A DNA stretch of 64,000 nucleotides from Flagellimonas oceani (GTDB lineage Bacteria; Bacteroidota; Bacteroidia; Flavobacteriales; Flavobacteriaceae), in NCBI RefSeq assembly GCF_011068285.1, contig NZ_CP049616.1, forward strand, positions 4,484,001 to 4,548,000, written 5' to 3'. This document shows positions 1-7,547 of the stretch, in pieces; position 1 is the first letter of the stretch, and the number at the start of each line of letters is the position of its first letter. The position numbers and the translations under genes were made by a program. A model generated the notes under the pieces. The model saw only the letters and a list, made by a program, of their open reading frames with translations. It was not told the origin of the DNA and ran no database searches.

Positions 1-687
1 ATCCCCTTCCTCGGCGGCTTGGGTTATATCCTCTCCATGAAGGTCGTTGTAAGCGATATCCCTAAACCTGCTATCAACAAGATATTTGCTCTGCATGTAC
101 ATTACCGTTCGCTTTAAGCCAGTGGCGGAAACATAGGCTTCCAGTCCGCCCTTTACCCCAAGGCCGGTCAATCTTCCATCTCCAATGGTCATGTCCACAT
201 GGCCCAATTCTCCGGCAAAACCATCGTACCCATCAATAAGTTGACCGTTGGCCACGATGCCCGCACCAAAACCGGTACCCAAGGTAATTACTATAAAATC
301 CGTCATGGCCTTGGCTCCGCCAAAGAGCATTTCGCCCAACGCGGCGGCGCTGGCATCGTTCATTATGCGGATGGGCATATCAAACCGTTGTTTGAGCAGT
401 TTTACCAGTGGAACGCTTCCTTTCCATGCCAGATTGCTGGCACTCTCGATAGTGCCATTTTTACTGGAGGCATTGGGTGCCCCTATACCACAGCCTATTA
501 TATTGGCATCGTCTCCAAAATTTTCTAAAAGCTCATCAACGGTAGATTTTATTTTGTCCAGAAAGTTGTCCAAGTTTGGATATTCCTTGGTCCTAAAAAA
601 GGTTTTTTCGTAGCATTCGCCATGTTCATCCACCAAACCTATCTTGGTTTTGGTGCCCCCAATATCAATTCCAATTACTAAATCCAT
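1..687 (-). CDS. ROK-family sugar kinase (glucokinase-like), 3' end outside window
   Basis: The first 229 residues are visible, read from an ATG at 687; ROK kinases usually run to about 290-320 residues, so the C-terminus lies beyond base 1. The N-terminus has the ATP-binding DIGGTKTKIG loop (residues 8-17). The catalytic Asp sits in MNDASAAALGE (D111), followed by the GTGFGAGI phosphate loop and GELGHVDM. ROK kinases phosphorylate glucose or related hexoses in the cytoplasm. Oddity: where the family normally has the zinc site CxCGxxGCxE, this protein reads GRLTGLGVKGGLE, so all three cysteines are missing. The gene diverges from the stress/central-carbon operon; a TATATTTA box (minus strand, 716-723) could be its promoter. 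The substrate cannot be read from sequence. Confidence 0.88.
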   Translation of the reverse strand, partial: MDLVIGIDIGGTKTKIGLVDEHGECYEKTFFRTKEYPNLDNFLDKIKSTVDELLENFGDDANIIGCGIGAPNASSKNGTIESASNLAWKGSVPLVKLLKQRFDMPIRIMNDASAAALGEMLFGGAKAMTDFIVITLGTGFGAGIVANGQLIDGYDGFAGELGHVDMTIGDGRLTGLGVKGGLEAYVSATGLKRTVMYMQSKYLVDSRFRDIAYNDLHGEDITQAAEEGD

Positions 688-807
688 TTTAAAAGTTGCG
701 TTGTTTTTTGGTTTCTAAATATAACCAATATGGTAGCAATAATATAACCCGATTGGTTTTTATGATGACTGATTTTTTGGTAATATCAAGAAGAAAGTTG
801 AAAAGCC

Positions 808-850
808 TGACATCCGTCATGTTTTAGGTCAGAGGTCGATTCTACTTTTG
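808..850 (+). promoter_or_regulatory. Palindromic activator-type site plus -7 box upstream of the stress/PEPCK operon
   Basis: TGACATCCGTCA (808-819) is an inverted repeat TGAC-N4-GTCA. After exactly 23 bp comes TACTTTTG (843-850), a match to the Bacteroidota -7 element TAnnTTTG, and the ATG follows 33 bp later. No TTTG -33 element stands at the usual 19-bp distance. The palindrome centre lies about 40 bp before the expected start of transcription, the class II position used by CRP/FNR-family activators. The same arrangement with the same 23-bp spacing recurs at 6512-6554. The identity of the regulator is inference. Confidence 0.55.
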
Positions 851-883
851 AAATGAAAATTAAAACCGATAAATATAACAGGT

Positions 884-1675
884 ATGAGCAGTTTAAATAA
901 AATATTAATTCCTTTTGATTTTTCCGAAGCGTCCGTCAACGCTTTGGAGTACGTGGTCAATTTTGTGGGCACTGAAAAAGCCATCGGTATTTTGGGCCTC
1001 TATGTGGGCAAGATGCCCATAAGTGGTTCGGATAACGAAAAACTGGGTGAGGATTTCGCCAAATTGATGGATTCTTTTGGCGCGAGATTAAAGGTTGTAC
1101 CCGAGTTCAAGACCGAAACCGGGGAAGTCATCAGTACCATACTTGCTGCGCAGGAAAAAAGCAACGCCGATTTGATCATGATGGGCACCATGGGCGATAA
1201 GATCACCGATGAGGCCATAACCAATACATCAAAATTGGTGCTAAAGGCCAATTGTCCGGTTATATCCATCCCTTATGGCACTACAATTAAGGAACCCAAG
1301 AATATTGCCTTGGTCATGGGCGGTGAAAAAATTGACGACAAAGAGGTTTTGGGAACGTTATTGGACATCGCCAGAACCTTTGACGCCAGGGTGCACGTCC
1401 TTACCATATATAAGGATTCCATTTATGATGAAGAAGCGATCAAAGAATCCAACGAAAATTTATTGGAATATTACCTGGAGCATTTTTATGCCGATCATAC
1501 CTTCACAAAAAATGAAGATATAGAACAAGGTATCTTGGAGTATATCAAGGAGAAAGAAATTGATCTATTGGCCATATTGCCCCGTAACCATACCGAGAGA
1601 AGTGCCCCATCGGAAGGTAGGTTGACAAAACTGTTGACCCTTCACTCCGAGATACCGGTACTGGCCTTGGATTAA
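884..1675 (+). CDS. Universal stress protein, tandem UspA domains
   Basis: 263 residues contain two UspA-like alpha/beta domains (about 3-130 and 138-263). The first opens with NKILIPFDFSEASVNALEYV and closes with ADLIMMGTMGDKITD, which keeps a GT-x-G start of the nucleotide loop, then CPVISIPYG. The second opens NIALVMGGEKIDD and ends with IPVLALD; its loop (LPRNHTERSAP) is degenerate. Tandem Usp proteins are cytoplasmic and are linked to low oxygen, energy or stress survival. It is the first gene of a probable operon: the SLC13 carrier starts 17 bp downstream, then pckA and pfkA. The start is the ATG directly behind the promoter at 808-850. Confidence 0.9.
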   Translation: MSSLNKILIPFDFSEASVNALEYVVNFVGTEKAIGILGLYVGKMPISGSDNEKLGEDFAKLMDSFGARLKVVPEFKTETGEVISTILAAQEKSNADLIMMGTMGDKITDEAITNTSKLVLKANCPVISIPYGTTIKEPKNIALVMGGEKIDDKEVLGTLLDIARTFDARVHVLTIYKDSIYDEEAIKESNENLLEYYLEHFYADHTFTKNEDIEQGILEYIKEKEIDLLAILPRNHTERSAPSEGRLTKLLTLHSEIPVLALD

Positions 1676-1692
1676 CCTTTGAACTTCTTAGC

Positions 1693-3528
1693 ATGCTGCC
1701 ACTGCTGATTATTTTAGGTATTACGATCGTATTGTTCGTATGGGGAAAGTTTCCTCCCGATGTCGTTGCCCTTATGGCGATGTTGTCGCTGTATCTCACC
1801 GGTATTTTGGACTTGGGGGAGACTTTGACGGGGTTCAGTAACCCGACCGTGATCATGATCGCCGCCCTTTTTATTATCGGCGAAGGACTGTCCAGAACAG
1901 GATGGACCGCAATGGCAGGACAATTTTTTGTGAAATGGGCGCGAAAGAATATTTCGAGGCTGTTGGTCATCGTAACTTTGGGCTCCAGTTTGTTGTCCGG
2001 TTTTGTGAGCAATACAGGAACGGTCGCCGCATTGCTTCCGGTAACCGTCACCGCAGCGTGGAATGCCGGTACGCTACCGTCCAAATTGTTGATTCCCGTT
2101 GCCTTTGGCTCCAATACGGGAGGACTGTTGACACTTACCGGTACACCGCCCAACATTATCGTGAGCAACGCCCTGGCACAGAACGGGTTTACAGGATTTT
2201 CGTTCTTTGAATTTGGTTTGATAGGCCTTCCGCTCCTGATTATTTCCGTGCTGTATTTCAGGTATGTAGGGTATAAGCTGCTGCCCGAACATCGGACGAA
2301 CAACAAGCCGATCGCCATTGATCAAGAAATGCACAAATGGATTGAGAACTACAGTATTGGTGATAACCTGTACCGATTGCGTATCCGTTCCATGTCGCAA
2401 TTGATCAACACTAACATAGGGGATTGGAATTTTGAGAGCGATCACAAAGTTTCTGTGATGCGACTCAAACGGAGGCACCCCAATACATTGCACAGAATCC
2501 CCCAATTTGTGGAAATGCCAGGACTCGATACCGAAATGCGCTATCACGATATCATAACCGTAAAAGGCGAACCTGAAGATGTGGATAGGTTGGTGATCAA
2601 GTTCCATTTAGGGGTAATTCCCTTAAAACCTGAATCCGATATGCTCAAAAGGGAGCTCATCAATCAGGAAGTGGGCATGGCAGAGATGATCATTACCCCA
2701 AAATCGGTATTTGTGGGGAAGACCATTAACTTGGGGCACTACCTGCGCCAGGCAGGAGTACAATTGTTGGCCGTTTCCCGGGACAATGCGCCATTAACGG
2801 GAAAAATTGAAATCAGGGCAGGGGATGCATTCGTCATCCGTGGACAATGGGAAAATATTATCGCACTCAAATCCGTGTACGAAAATCTGGTGATTTCAGG
2901 TAGTCCGGAAGCCTTGTCCAAAAATGTGGATGAGCTGACCACTAAAAGCTACATTGCACTGGGGACATTACTATTGATGATTCTTCTGTTGGTGCTCAAT
3001 GTTTTTCCCGGTGCCATTGCTGCGCTTATTTGTGCAGGAATCATGATGTTGACCGGCTGTGTACCGATAAGCAAAGCTTACAAGGGAATCAGTTGGACGA
3101 GCGTGGTCATGATCGCGGCCATGATTCCCATGGGATTGGCCTTGCAAAAAACGGGCGTGGCCCAACTGGCGGCCAATAGCTTAGTGGATACCTTGGGAAG
3201 CATTCATCCCGTGGCCTTGTTGGCAGGCATTTTCTTGCTTACGGCAGCCTTTAGTCAAACCATAAACAACTCCGCCACCGCGGTGTTAATGGCACCGATA
3301 GCCATAATGGCATCCATGACCTTGGGAGTTTCCCCGAAGCCTTTTATGATAGCGGTTGCCGTAAGCGCATCAACCGCATTCTTGACCCCTGTGGGCACCA
3401 CGACCAACGCCATGGTGATGTCCGCGGGCGGATATAAGTTTATTGATTATGTAAAAGTAGGAGGGCCTTTGCTACTACTTTTCTTTATAGCAACTTTAGT
3501 ACTGGTTCCATGGATATGGAGCTTCTAA
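1693..3528 (+). CDS. SLC13/DASS-family carboxylate transporter with two RCK_C domains
   Basis: 611 residues. An N-terminal membrane half (1-195) and a C-terminal half (420-611) frame a soluble insert with two TrkA-C/RCK_C-like domains (about 217-310 and 325-405). The family's paired SNT signatures are visible: SNTGTVAALLPVT and SNTGGLLTLTGTPPN in the first half, NNSATAVLMAPIA and TPVGTTTNAMVMSAGGY in the second. Members move di/tricarboxylates or sulfate with sodium in the inner membrane; RCK_C domains usually bind small ligands. Between a stress protein and PEP carboxykinase, a C4-dicarboxylate substrate is plausible but not proven. pckA starts 19 bp downstream. Confidence 0.88.
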   Translation: MLPLLIILGITIVLFVWGKFPPDVVALMAMLSLYLTGILDLGETLTGFSNPTVIMIAALFIIGEGLSRTGWTAMAGQFFVKWARKNISRLLVIVTLGSSLLSGFVSNTGTVAALLPVTVTAAWNAGTLPSKLLIPVAFGSNTGGLLTLTGTPPNIIVSNALAQNGFTGFSFFEFGLIGLPLLIISVLYFRYVGYKLLPEHRTNNKPIAIDQEMHKWIENYSIGDNLYRLRIRSMSQLINTNIGDWNFESDHKVSVMRLKRRHPNTLHRIPQFVEMPGLDTEMRYHDIITVKGEPEDVDRLVIKFHLGVIPLKPESDMLKRELINQEVGMAEMIITPKSVFVGKTINLGHYLRQAGVQLLAVSRDNAPLTGKIEIRAGDAFVIRGQWENIIALKSVYENLVISGSPEALSKNVDELTTKSYIALGTLLLMILLLVLNVFPGAIAALICAGIMMLTGCVPISKAYKGISWTSVVMIAAMIPMGLALQKTGVAQLAANSLVDTLGSIHPVALLAGIFLLTAAFSQTINNSATAVLMAPIAIMASMTLGVSPKPFMIAVAVSASTAFLTPVGTTTNAMVMSAGGYKFIDYVKVGGPLLLLFFIATLVLVPWIWSF

Positions 3529-3547
3529 CCATTAAAAAACAACAGAT

Positions 3548-5164
3548 ATGAGCACAACCAAAGACCTAAGCAAGTATGGATTGAAAAATGTCCGAGCACA
3601 ATGGAACCTTGATGCCGAAACTTTACAAAAACTAACCTTGGAGAAAGGTATGGGAGTCGAGACCGAAAACGGCACCCTGTGCATCAATACGGGAAAATTT
3701 ACAGGAAGGTCGCCAAAAGACCGTTTTTTGGTGAAAGATGATTACACCAAGGACAAAGTTTGGTGGGGCAGGATAAATAAACCTGTATCACCTGAAAACT
3801 TCGATAAATTGTATGATGAGGTAACCGATTATCTGGATGGCAAAGAAGTTTTTGTAAGGGATGCCTATGTGTGCGCGGATCCAAAATATAGAATGAACGT
3901 GAGGACCATCACCGAGTATCCTTGGTCCAATTATTTTATCAAAAATATGTTCCTGCGATTGGGCGAGAGCGAACTTGAAAACTTTGAGGAAGAATGGCTG
4001 GTGCTGTGCGCACCGGGATATGAGGCAAAAAATCCATCAGAATATGGTATTTTGAGCGGCAACTTTTCCATACTCAATTTTACCAAAAAGATTGCTCTGG
4101 TAGCTGGTTCTGCTTATACCGGCGAAATGAAAAAAGGTATTTTTTCCGCATTGAACCTTATCCTTCCTACTGAAAAAGAGGTGTTGCCCATGCACTGTTC
4201 CGCCAATGTGGGTGAAGATGGTGATACCGCCATTTTCTTTGGATTGTCCGGTACGGGGAAAACCACTTTGTCCGCCGACCCCGATCGTAAACTTATCGGG
4301 GACGATGAGCATGGCTGGACCAAAGAGGACACCATCTTTAATTTTGAAGGCGGGTGCTATGCCAAGGTGATCGACCTTACCGAAGAAAAGGAACCCGATA
4401 TTTATAGAGCCATCCGACCTGGTGCCTTGTTGGAAAACGTGGTGTTCAAAGAAGGTACAAAGGAAGTGGATTATTTTGATAGCACCATCACTCAGAACAC
4501 AAGGGTGAGCTATCCTATTTATCACATCGATAATATTCAGGAACCTTCGTATGCATCCAATCCTACAAACATCTTTTTCTTAACTTGTGATGCCTTTGGT
4601 GTGTTGCCCCCGGTTTCCAAACTGACCCCTGGTCAAGCGGCATACCATTTTATTTCGGGCTATACGGCCAAGGTGGCTGGGACAGAGGCCGGTATCACCG
4701 AGCCGGTTCCATCGTTCTCGGCATGTTTTGGAGAACCGTTTATGCCGTTGCACCCAACCGTTTATGCGGAAATGTTGAGCGAAAAGATGAAGGCATCCGG
4801 CGTGAATGTGTGGTTGATCAACACGGGATGGAGCGGAGGCCCTTACGGAGTTGGGTCAAGAATCAAGCTTAAGTATACAAGAGCCATGATTTCCGCTATT
4901 CTCGAAGGTAAATTGGACGAAGTGGATTTTGAAATACACCCCATTTTCGGACTGCACATGCCCAAATATTGTCCAGGGGTGCCTACGGAAATCTTGGACC
5001 CCATGAACACTTGGTTGCAAAAAGGAGCGTATGTGAGCAAAGCCATTCAATTGGCACATTCGTTTCACATCAACTTTGATAAATTTGCAAGTCAGGCATC
5101 GGATGAGATTATGAACGGTGGACCGCTCATCGATTCGCACCATAGCTTGGCAGAACATTTATAA
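3548..5164 (+). CDS. pckA: Phosphoenolpyruvate carboxykinase (ATP)
   Basis: 538 residues, the normal length for ATP-dependent PEPCK, which interconverts oxaloacetate + ATP and PEP + CO2 + ADP in the cytoplasm. The substrate-binding GRSPKDRF motif lies near residue 53, the PEPCK-specific segment around NFSILNFTKK, the kinase-1a P-loop GLSGTGKTTLS near 232-242, and LIGDDEHGW just after it; the metal ligands fall in this region. The C-terminal GYTAKVAGTE and NTGWSGGPYG motifs are intact. The GTG of pfkA follows after 12 bp, so the two are almost certainly cotranscribed. Having PEPCK beside phosphofructokinase suggests use in the carboxylating, succinate-forming direction; that is inference. Confidence 0.97.
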   Translation: MSTTKDLSKYGLKNVRAQWNLDAETLQKLTLEKGMGVETENGTLCINTGKFTGRSPKDRFLVKDDYTKDKVWWGRINKPVSPENFDKLYDEVTDYLDGKEVFVRDAYVCADPKYRMNVRTITEYPWSNYFIKNMFLRLGESELENFEEEWLVLCAPGYEAKNPSEYGILSGNFSILNFTKKIALVAGSAYTGEMKKGIFSALNLILPTEKEVLPMHCSANVGEDGDTAIFFGLSGTGKTTLSADPDRKLIGDDEHGWTKEDTIFNFEGGCYAKVIDLTEEKEPDIYRAIRPGALLENVVFKEGTKEVDYFDSTITQNTRVSYPIYHIDNIQEPSYASNPTNIFFLTCDAFGVLPPVSKLTPGQAAYHFISGYTAKVAGTEAGITEPVPSFSACFGEPFMPLHPTVYAEMLSEKMKASGVNVWLINTGWSGGPYGVGSRIKLKYTRAMISAILEGKLDEVDFEIHPIFGLHMPKYCPGVPTEILDPMNTWLQKGAYVSKAIQLAHSFHINFDKFASQASDEIMNGGPLIDSHHSLAEHL

Positions 5165-5176
5165 GAAACAGTAAAA

Positions 5177-6496
5177 GTGAGCGACATAAATAAATTTGAT
5201 ATAGAAAGTTTAGGGGCGTCCAAGTATAAGTCGCCCCTTCAACTTAGTACCGTAAAGGGAGATCGCATTTTCAATTTTGTAAGCGAGTCCGACCGATTGG
5301 TGTTCGACCTTTCCATGGAGTATTACAATCAATGTTTGAATGGCGGGGAGTCTCCTGTTTGCATGGAGAAGGCAGGGCCAAGACAGGACATTTTTTTTGA
5401 TAGCAAGAATGCCACTGCAGCAATAGTCACTTGTGGAGGATTGTGTCCCGGCATCAACAACGTCATAAGAGGTTTGGTCATGGCGCTGCATTATTTTTAT
5501 GGGGTCAAGAAAATCATAGGAATACCTTATGGCTATGAAGGGCTCAATCCTGATAAAGGACATGAGTTGGTGGAGTTGACTCCCGATAAGGTCAAGGATA
5601 TCCATCAATTTGGGGGGACATTTTTAGGCTCCTCACGTGGCGGGCAGGATGTTTCGGTAATGGTGGATACGCTCGAAAACCATAAGGTGGACATGCTTTT
5701 TGCCATTGGTGGGGATGGAACCCTGAAAGGAGTGAATGCCATTGGGGGAGAGATTTCCAAAAGAAACGGGAAAATCAGCGTGGTAGGAATTCCAAAAACG
5801 ATTGATAACGATATTGACTTGATTGATGAGTCCTTTGGGTTTCAAACCGCTTTTGATGTGGCCAGTCCCATTTTAAGGGATGCCCATAACGAAGCCACTG
5901 GGGCTTACAACGGTATTTCCATCATCAAATTGATGGGAAGGGACAGTGGTTTCATTGCCGCATCGGCCGCTTTGGCCATGCCGGTGGTCAACTTTGTGCT
6001 GATCCCCGAAATGGATTTTGCCCTCGATGGTAAGGATGGTTTCTTAAAGGTGCTGGAAAATCGGCTCCATCAAAAAAAACATGCCGTGATCGTGGTGGCG
6101 GAAGGCGCGGGTCAGCAGCTGTTCAAGGAAAAGGAGATCGTTACCGATGCATCAGGTAATGTACAGCACGAGGATATCGGGGTTTACCTTAAGGAAAAAA
6201 TATCGGAATACTTTAAAGGAAAGAGTCCGGTCACCATTAAATATATCGACCCAAGTTACATTGTGCGCTGTGCTCCCGCCAATTCCAGCGATAGCGTGTA
6301 TTGTAGCCGATTGGCCTACCATGCGGTGCACGGAGCCATGGCCGGAAAGACCAAATTTGTTGCCAGTAGGGTGAACAATAGGTATGTGTACATCCCCATA
6401 GACCAGGTGACCAAAAAACGTAAGAAAATTGATTTGGAGGGCGAATTCTGGTTTTCTGTGCTTCAGAGTACCGGCCAACCCTTTTTCTTGGGATAG
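5177..6496 (+). CDS. pfkA: 6-phosphofructokinase, long plant-type clade
   Basis: 439 residues. Phosphorylates fructose 6-phosphate, the committing step of glycolysis. GGDGTLKG (178-185) carries Gly at the position that in pyrophosphate enzymes is Asp, pointing to ATP as donor. PKTIDND (206-212) has the Lys that E. coli-type ATP enzymes lack. That Gly/Lys pair is known from plant-type ATP-dependent enzymes. Other motifs are CGGLCPGINNVIRG, MGRDSGFIA and the PEMDF loop. The start is GTG at 5177, 12 bp after pckA; no in-frame ATG gives a better N-terminus. It is the last gene of the Usp-SLC13-pckA-pfkA unit; the next palindromic promoter begins 15 bp after its stop. Confidence 0.92.
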   Translation: MSDINKFDIESLGASKYKSPLQLSTVKGDRIFNFVSESDRLVFDLSMEYYNQCLNGGESPVCMEKAGPRQDIFFDSKNATAAIVTCGGLCPGINNVIRGLVMALHYFYGVKKIIGIPYGYEGLNPDKGHELVELTPDKVKDIHQFGGTFLGSSRGGQDVSVMVDTLENHKVDMLFAIGGDGTLKGVNAIGGEISKRNGKISVVGIPKTIDNDIDLIDESFGFQTAFDVASPILRDAHNEATGAYNGISIIKLMGRDSGFIAASAALAMPVVNFVLIPEMDFALDGKDGFLKVLENRLHQKKHAVIVVAEGAGQQLFKEKEIVTDASGNVQHEDIGVYLKEKISEYFKGKSPVTIKYIDPSYIVRCAPANSSDSVYCSRLAYHAVHGAMAGKTKFVASRVNNRYVYIPIDQVTKKRKKIDLEGEFWFSVLQSTGQPFFLG

Positions 6497-6511
6497 AAAT
6501 TGTGATTAAGC

Positions 6512-6554
6512 TGACAATTGTCATTAAATAGTATCTTTACTAGACCTAGATTTG
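6512..6554 (+). promoter_or_regulatory. Second palindromic activator-type promoter
   Basis: TGACAATTGTCA (6512-6523) is a perfect 12-bp palindrome. Exactly 23 bp later stands TAGATTTG (6547-6554), a full match to TAnnTTTG, and the likely ATG of the hibernation-factor gene is at 6576. Compared with 808-850, the site shares CTGACA-N3-GTCAT and the identical 23-bp spacing. There is again no TTTG -33 box at the standard distance. Together the two sites define a small regulon, probably of a CRP/FNR-family activator. Confidence 0.58.
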
Positions 6555-6575
6555 AAAAGAATCAAAACAACAATT

Positions 6576-6875
6576 ATGGAAGTACATGTTCAATATCAAA
6601 AGATGATGACCAGTGAATCATTGACCCAATTACTAATGAAAAAACTGGAAGGTTTGGAAACCAAATACAGTTGGTTGATCAAGGCCAACGTACTCTTTAA
6701 GACAGAGAACGATAAAGCTGGAGAGGGGAAGATCTGTGAAATAGAACTTAGCGCTCCCGGACCGAGAATTTTTGCCAAGTCCAGTACCGATGATTTTGAA
6801 AAATCGATGTCCAAGACCATTGAGGATTTGAGACGGCAGTTGGAAAAAAGACAGGCAACGTTTGCCACACATTAA
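6576..6875 (+). CDS. HPF/YfiA-like ribosome hibernation factor
   Basis: 99 residues from the ATG at 6576. A TTG at 6552 would extend the frame by eight residues, but it overlaps the -7 box, and MEVHVQYQKM fits the family's start on its first beta strand. The pattern (short beta strand, helix with SESLTQLLMKKLEGLETKY, strands with KICEIELSAPGPRIFAKSS, then a helix ending DLRRQLEKRQ) matches the beta-alpha-beta-beta-beta-alpha fold of HPF/YfiA proteins, which dimerise and silence ribosomes in slow growth. The family call is by pattern and moderately sure. The lipoprotein gene follows 42 bp downstream. Confidence 0.7.
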   Translation: MEVHVQYQKMMTSESLTQLLMKKLEGLETKYSWLIKANVLFKTENDKAGEGKICEIELSAPGPRIFAKSSTDDFEKSMSKTIEDLRRQLEKRQATFATH

Positions 6876-6917: not shown

Positions 6918-7547
6918 ATGAAACTCAAATTAATAGGTATAACGCTATTGCTCCTTACGGGATGCTCCTCTACCAAGTTGGTCAGCACTTGGAAAAATCC
7001 TGACAACGTGATTTTTGATGCGTATCAGGTGTTGGTCGTAGGAATGGTACAGGACGATGCCATGCGAATGGATTTTGAAAGCAAGTTCGCAGAAGCCCTA
7101 AAGGCCCAAGGCGTGGATGCCGTGCGCAGCATCGACCTTTTTGATGTGGAATTTACCTCGGCCGAAAGATCGGAACAGGAGTTAAAAGAGGTTGAGGAAC
7201 AATTATTGGACAAGGGTTTTGATGCCATTCTGTTTACCAAGATCGTAGGCGCCGAAAACCGAAGAACCTTTCGAGAGCGGGTCAATAATATTGATAACAT
7301 GATCGTTCGTTTCAGCAATGATTACCTCGAGCATCAAAATATATATTATAACCCTGAGTACAACGATAGTTTTAACGTATACCATTCGGAAACATCGCTC
7401 TACTGTATATGTGTTGGAAAGGAAATTGAACTCATTTGGAGGGGCGATGTGGAAGTAACGGAACCCGAAAATGTGAACAAAACCATCGACTCCTATATTA
7501 GATTGGTCACAAAATCAATGGGAGAGCAAGATGTAATTTTTAATTAG
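6918..7547 (+). CDS. Predicted lipoprotein of unknown function
   Basis: 209 residues with a signal peptide and lipobox LLTGC (Cys16), so probably anchored in the envelope. The mature N-terminus SSTKLVSTWKNPD is one I associate with a Bacteroidota lipoprotein family, but I cannot name a function. The mature part alternates beta strands and amphipathic helices; no enzyme motif is visible. It lies directly after the hibernation-factor gene and is likely transcribed from the palindromic promoter at 6512. Its last 8 bases overlap the 3' end of a 49-codon gene on the other strand. Confidence 0.75.
   Translation: MKLKLIGITLLLLTGCSSTKLVSTWKNPDNVIFDAYQVLVVGMVQDDAMRMDFESKFAEALKAQGVDAVRSIDLFDVEFTSAERSEQELKEVEEQLLDKGFDAILFTKIVGAENRRTFRERVNNIDNMIVRFSNDYLEHQNIYYNPEYNDSFNVYHSETSLYCICVGKEIELIWRGDVEVTEPENVNKTIDSYIRLVTKSMGEQDVIFN

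Follow-up and report, generated by a model that had tools for sequence, protein, structure and literature searches.

What switches on two neighbouring promoters of Flagellimonas oceani that carry the same short inverted repeat at the same distance from an otherwise incomplete promoter? The promoters lie in a stretch of 64,000 nucleotides (the window, 4484001-4548000 of a genome of one contig, 4.61 Mb), one before a putative operon that opens with a universal stress protein (Usp) gene and the other before a gene for a ribosome hibernation promoting factor (HPF). As the probable answer, we propose that at both promoters an activator from the FNR branch of the CRP/FNR proteins binds in the class II position, and that the two sites belong to a regulon that extends across the family Flavobacteriaceae. 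The recurring box appears to be a flavobacterial equivalent of the FNR oxygen response. The composite motif, its fixed spacing, its conservation, its target set and its co-occurrence with regulators were all computed directly.

The initial annotation had described two palindromes with the same dyad unit, the same 23-bp spacing to a TAnnTTTG box and no TTTG at -33, and our sequence check of the window confirmed this. The two elements, CTGACATCCGTCAT (807-820) and CTGACAATTGTCAT (6511-6524), are the only exact matches to CTGACAN3GTCAT in the window, and at both of them 23 bases separate the last A of GTCA from the T of the TAnnTTTG box (TACTTTTG, 843-850; TAGATTTG, 6547-6554). The palindromes had also been called identical, which is true of their arms and not of the whole sequence: the first dyad, TGACATCCGTCA (808-819), has ATCC at its centre and the second, TGACAATTGTCA (6512-6523), which is a perfect 12-bp palindrome, has AATT. 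The recurring unit is TGAY-N4-RTCA. The housekeeping promoter of Bacteroidota comprises a TTTG at -33 together with the -7 element TAnnTTTG; both window promoters possess the -7 element, and in neither does a TTTG occur between positions 12 and 22 of the 43-mer that spans dyad and box, which corresponds to the -33 zone. A class II activator site in E. coli is centred at about -41.5. Start-site mapping in Flavobacterium psychrophilum places TAnnTTTG at -12 to -5 (excerpt of PMC9723704) and, because the dyad centre lies 29.5 bp upstream of the first T of TAnnTTTG, taken as -12, it falls at -41.5. This is the class II geometry, with the palindrome replacing the -33 element, that the initial annotation had suggested. 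The two promoters and the genes that follow them are listed here.

808..819, + strand: TGAC-N4-GTCA dyad centred at -41.5, putative FNR-type box for the Usp operon; exact composite in genus orthologues.
843..850, + strand: TAnnTTTG element for the Usp operon, placed at -12 to -5 after PMC9723704 (excerpt), with transcription predicted to begin at 855.
884..1675, + strand: Usp, 263 aa; Pfam PF00582, 62.8 bits (cut-off 24).
1693..3528, + strand: anion transporter (CitMHS / SLC13-like) with TrkA_C domains; PF03600 291 bits, PF02080 49 bits; DASS NCBIfam model 157.8 bits, under its cut-off of 198.6.
3548..5164, + strand: phosphoenolpyruvate carboxykinase (ATP) (PEPCK); TIGR00224, 720 bits (cut-off 590).
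5177..6496, + strand: 6-phosphofructokinase (PFK); NF005301, 650 bits (cut-off 400).
6512..6523, + strand: TGACAATTGTCA dyad, palindromic over all its 12 bp, putative FNR-type box for HPF; composite in genus orthologues.
6547..6554, + strand: TAnnTTTG element for HPF, with transcription predicted to begin at 6559.
6576..6875, + strand: HPF family protein, 99 aa; PF02482, 51.8 bits (cut-off 23.7); TIGR00741, 31.5 bits, under its cut-off of 40.9.
6918..7547, + strand: lipoprotein-like open reading frame (ORF), 209 aa, from the ORF list, without Pfam or NCBIfam family; it may continue the HPF unit.

A genome-wide search for the composite of dyad and box, the check proposed with the initial annotation, supported its view that two such sites are unlikely to arise by chance. 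With the strict dyad and gaps of 16-28 allowed before TAnnTTTG we found five sites, all five at gap 23 (one match in the reversed control); five equal gaps have a chance of about 3.5e-5 under a uniform gap distribution. At gap 23 and with up to two mismatches there were 52 matches against 34 in the control, and some of the extra matches lay before hemN (4481950), a gene for an FNR-like protein (4469529) and the Usp gene that follows it (4468758), and near ccoN (4472007). Based on these matches we tried TGAY...RTCA arms, and TGAY-N4-RTCA-N23-TAnnTTTG then gave 13 sites with none in the control. With TTTA at the end of their -7 box, the Usp (4468758) and ccoN (4472007) places do not match this form. 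One of the 13 sites (3063741) appears by eye to be coding and was excluded as a target; it also lies outside the stretches read for the own-genome target listing. Within the window, loose dyad matches with up to two mismatches were at chance level (11 against 12.97 expected).

Relatives showed the same enrichment. Across 100 family genomes, each from a different genus, the relaxed composite occurred 736 times against 12 in the reversed control, and 88 of the genomes had a match. These totals are per-genome counts; gap counts refer to the matches listed, where strict arms with gaps of 8-38 gave gap 23 in 89 of 150, gap 24 in 7, gap 22 in 5 and other gaps in 49. We also scanned, with gaps of 5-45, 80 named loci that surround the FNR-like gene; most are from Flagellimonas/Allomuricauda, and Croceitalea, Croceivirga, Maribacter and Zobellia are among the other genera. 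Gap 23 accounted for 78 matches and the other gaps for 5, with none in the reversed control; 74 of the 80 loci had at least one composite site. Across a phylum sample of 296 genomes the composite was matched in 123, with 276 matches against 5 in the control for 30 family genomes, 24 against 0 for 6 more genomes of the order and 112 against 7 for 37 more genomes of the class, while 57 of the remaining 223 genomes (by subtraction) had any match. The initial annotation had envisaged a small regulon defined by two promoters; with 736 sites in 100 genera it is family-wide instead. One genome outside the class (G397) is an outlier among its table neighbours, with 28 composite sites where the control has 0.

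The two window promoters are themselves conserved. Within the genus a Usp orthologue was found in 29 of 30 genomes, and each of the 29 carries the composite without mismatch, 24-37 bp upstream of the matched start. The composite before HPF orthologues was exact in 24 of 29 and had one mismatch in four; the remaining locus (L353) is truncated at a contig end, where the fixed offset did not reach its start, and was counted as a miss. Conservation in the genus alignment is highest at the arms, the bases just 3' of them (CATGTTTTAG in the Usp promoter) and TAnnTTTG, and lower between these. The promoters of HPF homologues in 30 genera, including our own genome (the best-scoring 30 of 68 genomes with a homologue), had the composite exactly in 13 cases, with one mismatch in 9 and with more in 8, compared with a background for zero or one mismatch of 0.007 per promoter. 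In four genomes of the genus (G100, G104, G106 and G110) the Usp and HPF starts are 2.2-4.0 kb apart as opposed to 5.7 kb, and part of the transporter-PEPCK-PFK block seems to be absent between them.

In order to describe the genes behind these sites we took 136 distinct sites on stretches from 23 genomes, chosen among the matches listed; the counts describe this sample only. In the site consensus TGAY is followed by a centre rich in A and T, then by RTCAT and a run of T, and TTTG is missing from the -33 zone at 123 of the 136. Twelve sites without a downstream ORF above score were excluded and the other 124 clustered, with family names given by one representative per cluster; the simple gene finder chose some internal starts (the FNR-like gene, one hemN). 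The most frequent first genes were hemN (14), Usp (14) and a ccoN-containing cluster (12, the G036 member being doubtful), followed by a cytochrome c lipoprotein (9), Thioredoxin_9 (7) and HPF (6). Phosphate acetyltransferase (pta), pyruvate formate-lyase (pfl) and a metallo-beta-lactamase/rhodanese protein each came first at four sites, a thioredoxin-reductase-like flavoprotein at three and nadA at two. Rarer first genes included feoB, a copper nitrite reductase (nirK-type) and a NapC/NirT cytochrome. Class II sites near -41.5 before cbb3 oxidase, heme and fermentation genes place this set with FNR-type regulons, and hemN, ccoNO, pfl, the nirK-type reductase, feoB and the cytochromes c, taken from our own and related genomes, agree with the low-oxygen theme that the initial annotation had put forward. 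Oxygen limitation also raises cbb3 oxidase and heme-pathway genes in F. psychrophilum, which likewise has TAnnTTTG promoters (excerpt of PMC9723704), and this fits two main targets of the box.

In our own genome the box also stands before a paralogous Usp gene, whose neighbour in the opposite direction is a ROK gene, before Thioredoxin_9, hemN and the FNR-like gene itself, and before genes for a glyoxalase-fold and a biotin/lipoyl protein, an unassigned 155-aa ORF and three small ORFs that look alike by eye. The genome has two paralogous divergent ROK kinase/Usp pairs, at L026:8953-10833 and at window 1-1675, and each Usp gene has a composite site. Small cysteine-rich ORFs, alike by eye, lie 3' of composite sites at L025:7527-7946, L069 and L076 in our own genome and at L250 in another (G012); the one such ORF tested had no Pfam family. 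At two loci (L259 in G027, L262 in G078) HPF is directly followed by a Usp gene behind a single composite site, a second link between HPF and Usp.

The initial annotation had pointed to a CRP/FNR-family regulator. The sites do track proteins of that family, although two candidates emerge in place of the single one that had been sought. One is the FNR-like protein (229 aa, 4468820-4469506), encoded about 15 kb before the window and adjoining the cbb3 oxidase cluster. Its cNMP-fold (PF00027, 67.3 bits) and HTH_Crp (PF13545, 54.8 bits) domains are both above cut-off, and FNR-type regulators are among the solved structures nearest to it in sequence. Sets of 30 loci, here and for the second candidate, are the 30 best-scoring. 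Residues C5, C8, C54 and C107 are invariant in all 30 aligned loci and in all 80 named loci. The cluster cysteines of E. coli FNR are C20, C23, C29 and C122; when aligned with FNR-type structures, C5, C8 and C107 match cysteines and C54 faces an alanine. An Fe-S cluster carried by these four cysteines is possible, and the protein would likely be an oxygen-labile Fe-S sensor. Its neighbours, targets and cysteines indicate that the signal is probably low oxygen. E209 and R213 are recognition-helix residues of E. coli FNR, and the corresponding helix reads TESxIR (TESAIR or TESCIR) in 26 of 30 loci by pattern, four being unmatched. About 61 composite sites in the 80 named loci lie immediately upstream of the FNR-like gene itself. 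Thirteen named loci (L390, L399-L401, L405-L407, L410, L412-L414, L416 and L424) have a tandem second FNR-like gene upstream of the first, with its own composite site.

The second candidate, a receiver-CRP fusion of 352 aa (2723238-2724293), joins a receiver to cNMP_binding and HTH_Crp_2 domains, and is therefore not of the FixJ type, in which a receiver is joined to a LuxR-type helix-turn-helix. In our own genome a PAS histidine kinase gene lies upstream and Usp genes downstream. Among the 30 receiver-CRP loci, two of which are cut, a crude kinase motif occurs upstream in 29 and a Usp start downstream in 27, and in 21 an exact composite site is found up to 400 bp 3' of the regulator gene, before the next gene. 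The recognition helix, TETLIR or TESLIR in 24 of 30 loci by pattern, resembles that of the FNR-like protein. The kinase before our receiver-CRP gene (L026:11273-13159, genome about 2721272-2723158, + strand) has a PAS-LOV-PAS layout, its second PAS domain containing GRNCRFLQ and matching LOV structures best. Among 40 receiver-CRP loci, of which those of 3-4 kb hold a partial kinase, the LOV motif was found only in the two copies of our own locus (L026 and L167).

We then compared regulators with sites in the 100 family genomes, calling the FNR-like protein at 150 bits or more (59 genomes) and the receiver-CRP protein at E 1e-40 (42 genomes). Genomes with both averaged 13.0 sites (n=22), those with only the receiver-CRP protein 9.1 (n=18), those with only the FNR-like protein 6.9 (n=37) and those with neither 0.85 (n=20, 12 without any site). 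Genomes with only a more distant FNR-like paralogue were set apart (6.5 sites in two that also have the receiver-CRP protein, 3 in one). When the comparison was limited to genomes of at least 2.5 Mb and at least 90% completeness, the six without a regulator had 0, 0, 0, 1, 1 and 2 sites and the 64 with at least one had 2-26 (p = 6e-5, not corrected for relatedness).

We propose that a dimer would bind TGAY-N4-RTCA at -41.5, in the place of the housekeeping -33 TTTG, and would contact RNA polymerase so that promoters with TAnnTTTG alone could fire; activation through polymerase contact at promoters without a -33 TTTG is the likely mechanism. The FNR-like protein and the receiver-CRP response regulator probably use the same box, and the regulon would comprise hemN, ccoNO, cytochromes c, pfl, pta, Usp genes, HPF and others. 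A drop in oxygen would induce high-affinity respiration and, along with it, ribosome hibernation and the Usp-transporter-PEPCK-PFK unit. Binding, activation as opposed to repression, oxygen sensing, the operon structure and the pairing of regulators with promoters are what we infer from the computed results. Several observations weigh against this proposal. The bare TGACN4GTCA dyad is not enriched genome-wide (38 sites against 39 in the reversed control), and 13 of the 136 sampled sites do carry TTTG in the -33 zone. The FNR-like protein scores 109.2 bits with the NCBIfam Fnr model NF008365, under the cut-off of 228, and has N14 at the place of the canonical C29, so that one cluster cysteine is lacking. 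Our genome encodes two further CRP-like proteins (L023 and L024) outside the comparison of box readers. The co-occurrence of regulators and sites is confounded by relatedness and genome size, the 20 regulator-less genomes averaging 2.26 Mb, and one genome (G048, 82% complete) has nine sites and no detected regulator. Carbon sensing has also been predicted for a CRP/FNR homologue in a Flavobacteriales genome with a Bacteroides MalR matrix (excerpt of PMC8510549).

That last prediction, and the presence of PEPCK and PFK in the Usp operon, favour a cAMP- or carbon-responsive CRP/MalR-type protein that reads the box as a signal of energy or carbon limitation. E. coli CRP contacts cAMP through E72 and R82, and by eye equivalents of these residues are absent from both candidate regulators. 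The targets are respiratory and anaerobic, and the sites track the cbb3-linked and receiver-CRP regulators. We rejected cAMP-CRP as the box reader on the missing residues and the respiratory targets, and give very little credence to this kind of regulator as a whole; the energy-limitation branch of the initial annotation is accordingly disfavoured. Since the dyad overlaps the -33 position, it could also be an operator at which a protein represses by covering that region. We consider this improbable, as both window sites and 123 of the 136 sampled sites have no -33 TTTG for a repressor to cover and a single exact spacing is kept, as polymerase contact would predict. The lack of enrichment of the bare dyad is what would be expected if two short palindromes had arisen by coincidence, an explanation with next to no chance of being right; we rejected it on the composite counts (736 against 12), the conservation in genus orthologues and before HPF homologues of other genera, and the gap-23 excess in the named loci (78 against 5).

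A division of labour between the two candidates has more in its favour. In this organism the receiver-CRP protein alone might run the Usp operon and HPF promoters, and the FNR-like protein hemN, cco and its own gene, in which case the signal at our promoters would be phosphorylation and not direct oxygen sensing. The Usp genes and exact sites that follow the receiver-CRP gene are consistent with this, as is the paralogous Usp gene with a site close to the receiver-CRP gene of our own genome. Usp also comes first at 9 of the 35 sites from genomes that have only the receiver-CRP protein, compared with 2 of 76 from those that have only the FNR-like protein (p = 4.6e-4), a count inflated by the longer stretches taken around receiver-CRP genes. 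However, HPF comes first in genomes with only the FNR-like protein too (2 of 76 sites, against 2 of 35), and 7 of 11 such genomes have an HPF site with zero or one mismatch; therefore either regulator can serve HPF. Moreover, hemN and ccoN carry sites in genomes with only the receiver-CRP protein. We regard a strict division of this kind as rather unlikely and favour a shared class II box of the FNR type.

Among the closest known systems are FNR, FnrN and FixK of Proteobacteria. These are CRP/FNR-family regulators whose box, TTGAT-N4-ATCAA, has the same TGA-N6-TCA core and the same class II centre at -41.5. The flavobacterial box differs in that it lacks the outer T of TTGAT and stands before TAnnTTTG rather than in a TTGACA/TATAAT promoter. 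The fourth cysteine of the flavobacterial FNR-like protein is placed elsewhere, the targets include Usp, PEPCK/PFK and HPF, and a receiver-CRP fusion co-occurs. In Alphaproteobacteria cco and hemN are among the FNR/FnrN/FixK targets and fixK is autoregulated (excerpt of PMC4999443). The same excerpt ties a PAS histidine kinase and a response regulator to FixK-type control in FixLJ-FixK, as in our second candidate, whereas the flavobacterial protein has receiver and CRP output in one chain, without a separate FixJ step. The FNR-type class II regulon is a known kind of system; ours departs from it in its promoter setting and its cysteine set, in having a fused second regulator, and in its HPF and PEPCK/PFK targets. 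The terms crp, palindrom, TGAC, fnr and hibernation do not occur in the main text of PMC9723704, and our searches of open-licence papers, with excerpts of PMC9723704 and PMC8510549, brought up no description of the box in flavobacteria.

Usp proteins are also members of the mycobacterial DosR regulon, and DosR belongs to another response-regulator family with another box. This low-oxygen regulon holds RafH, a ribosome-associated hypoxia factor, and the phosphofructokinase PfkB (table in PMC5309233, excerpt). The window's Usp, PFK and hibernation factor genes are reminiscent of it, a likeness in gene content and no more. As a tentative idea, to which we give somewhat less than even chances, the flavobacterial regulon may be a dormancy-like low-oxygen regulon convergent with that of DosR. 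An FNR variant with a new cysteine set (C5, C8, C54 and C107) and a kinase-driven receiver-CRP protein would share one class II box. Oxygen loss, together with another signal (in our own genome possibly blue light via the LOV domain of the kinase), would trigger hibernation, Usp and the PEPCK/PFK switch.

To our knowledge, activator-dependent promoters of Bacteroidota have been little described. TGAY-N4-RTCA-N23-TAnnTTTG is a searchable rule that gives candidate oxygen-type targets in 88 of the 100 Flavobacteriaceae genera sampled. It comes with two named regulators and would put ribosome hibernation and high-affinity respiration behind one switch, which makes the survival of low oxygen by flavobacteria directly testable.

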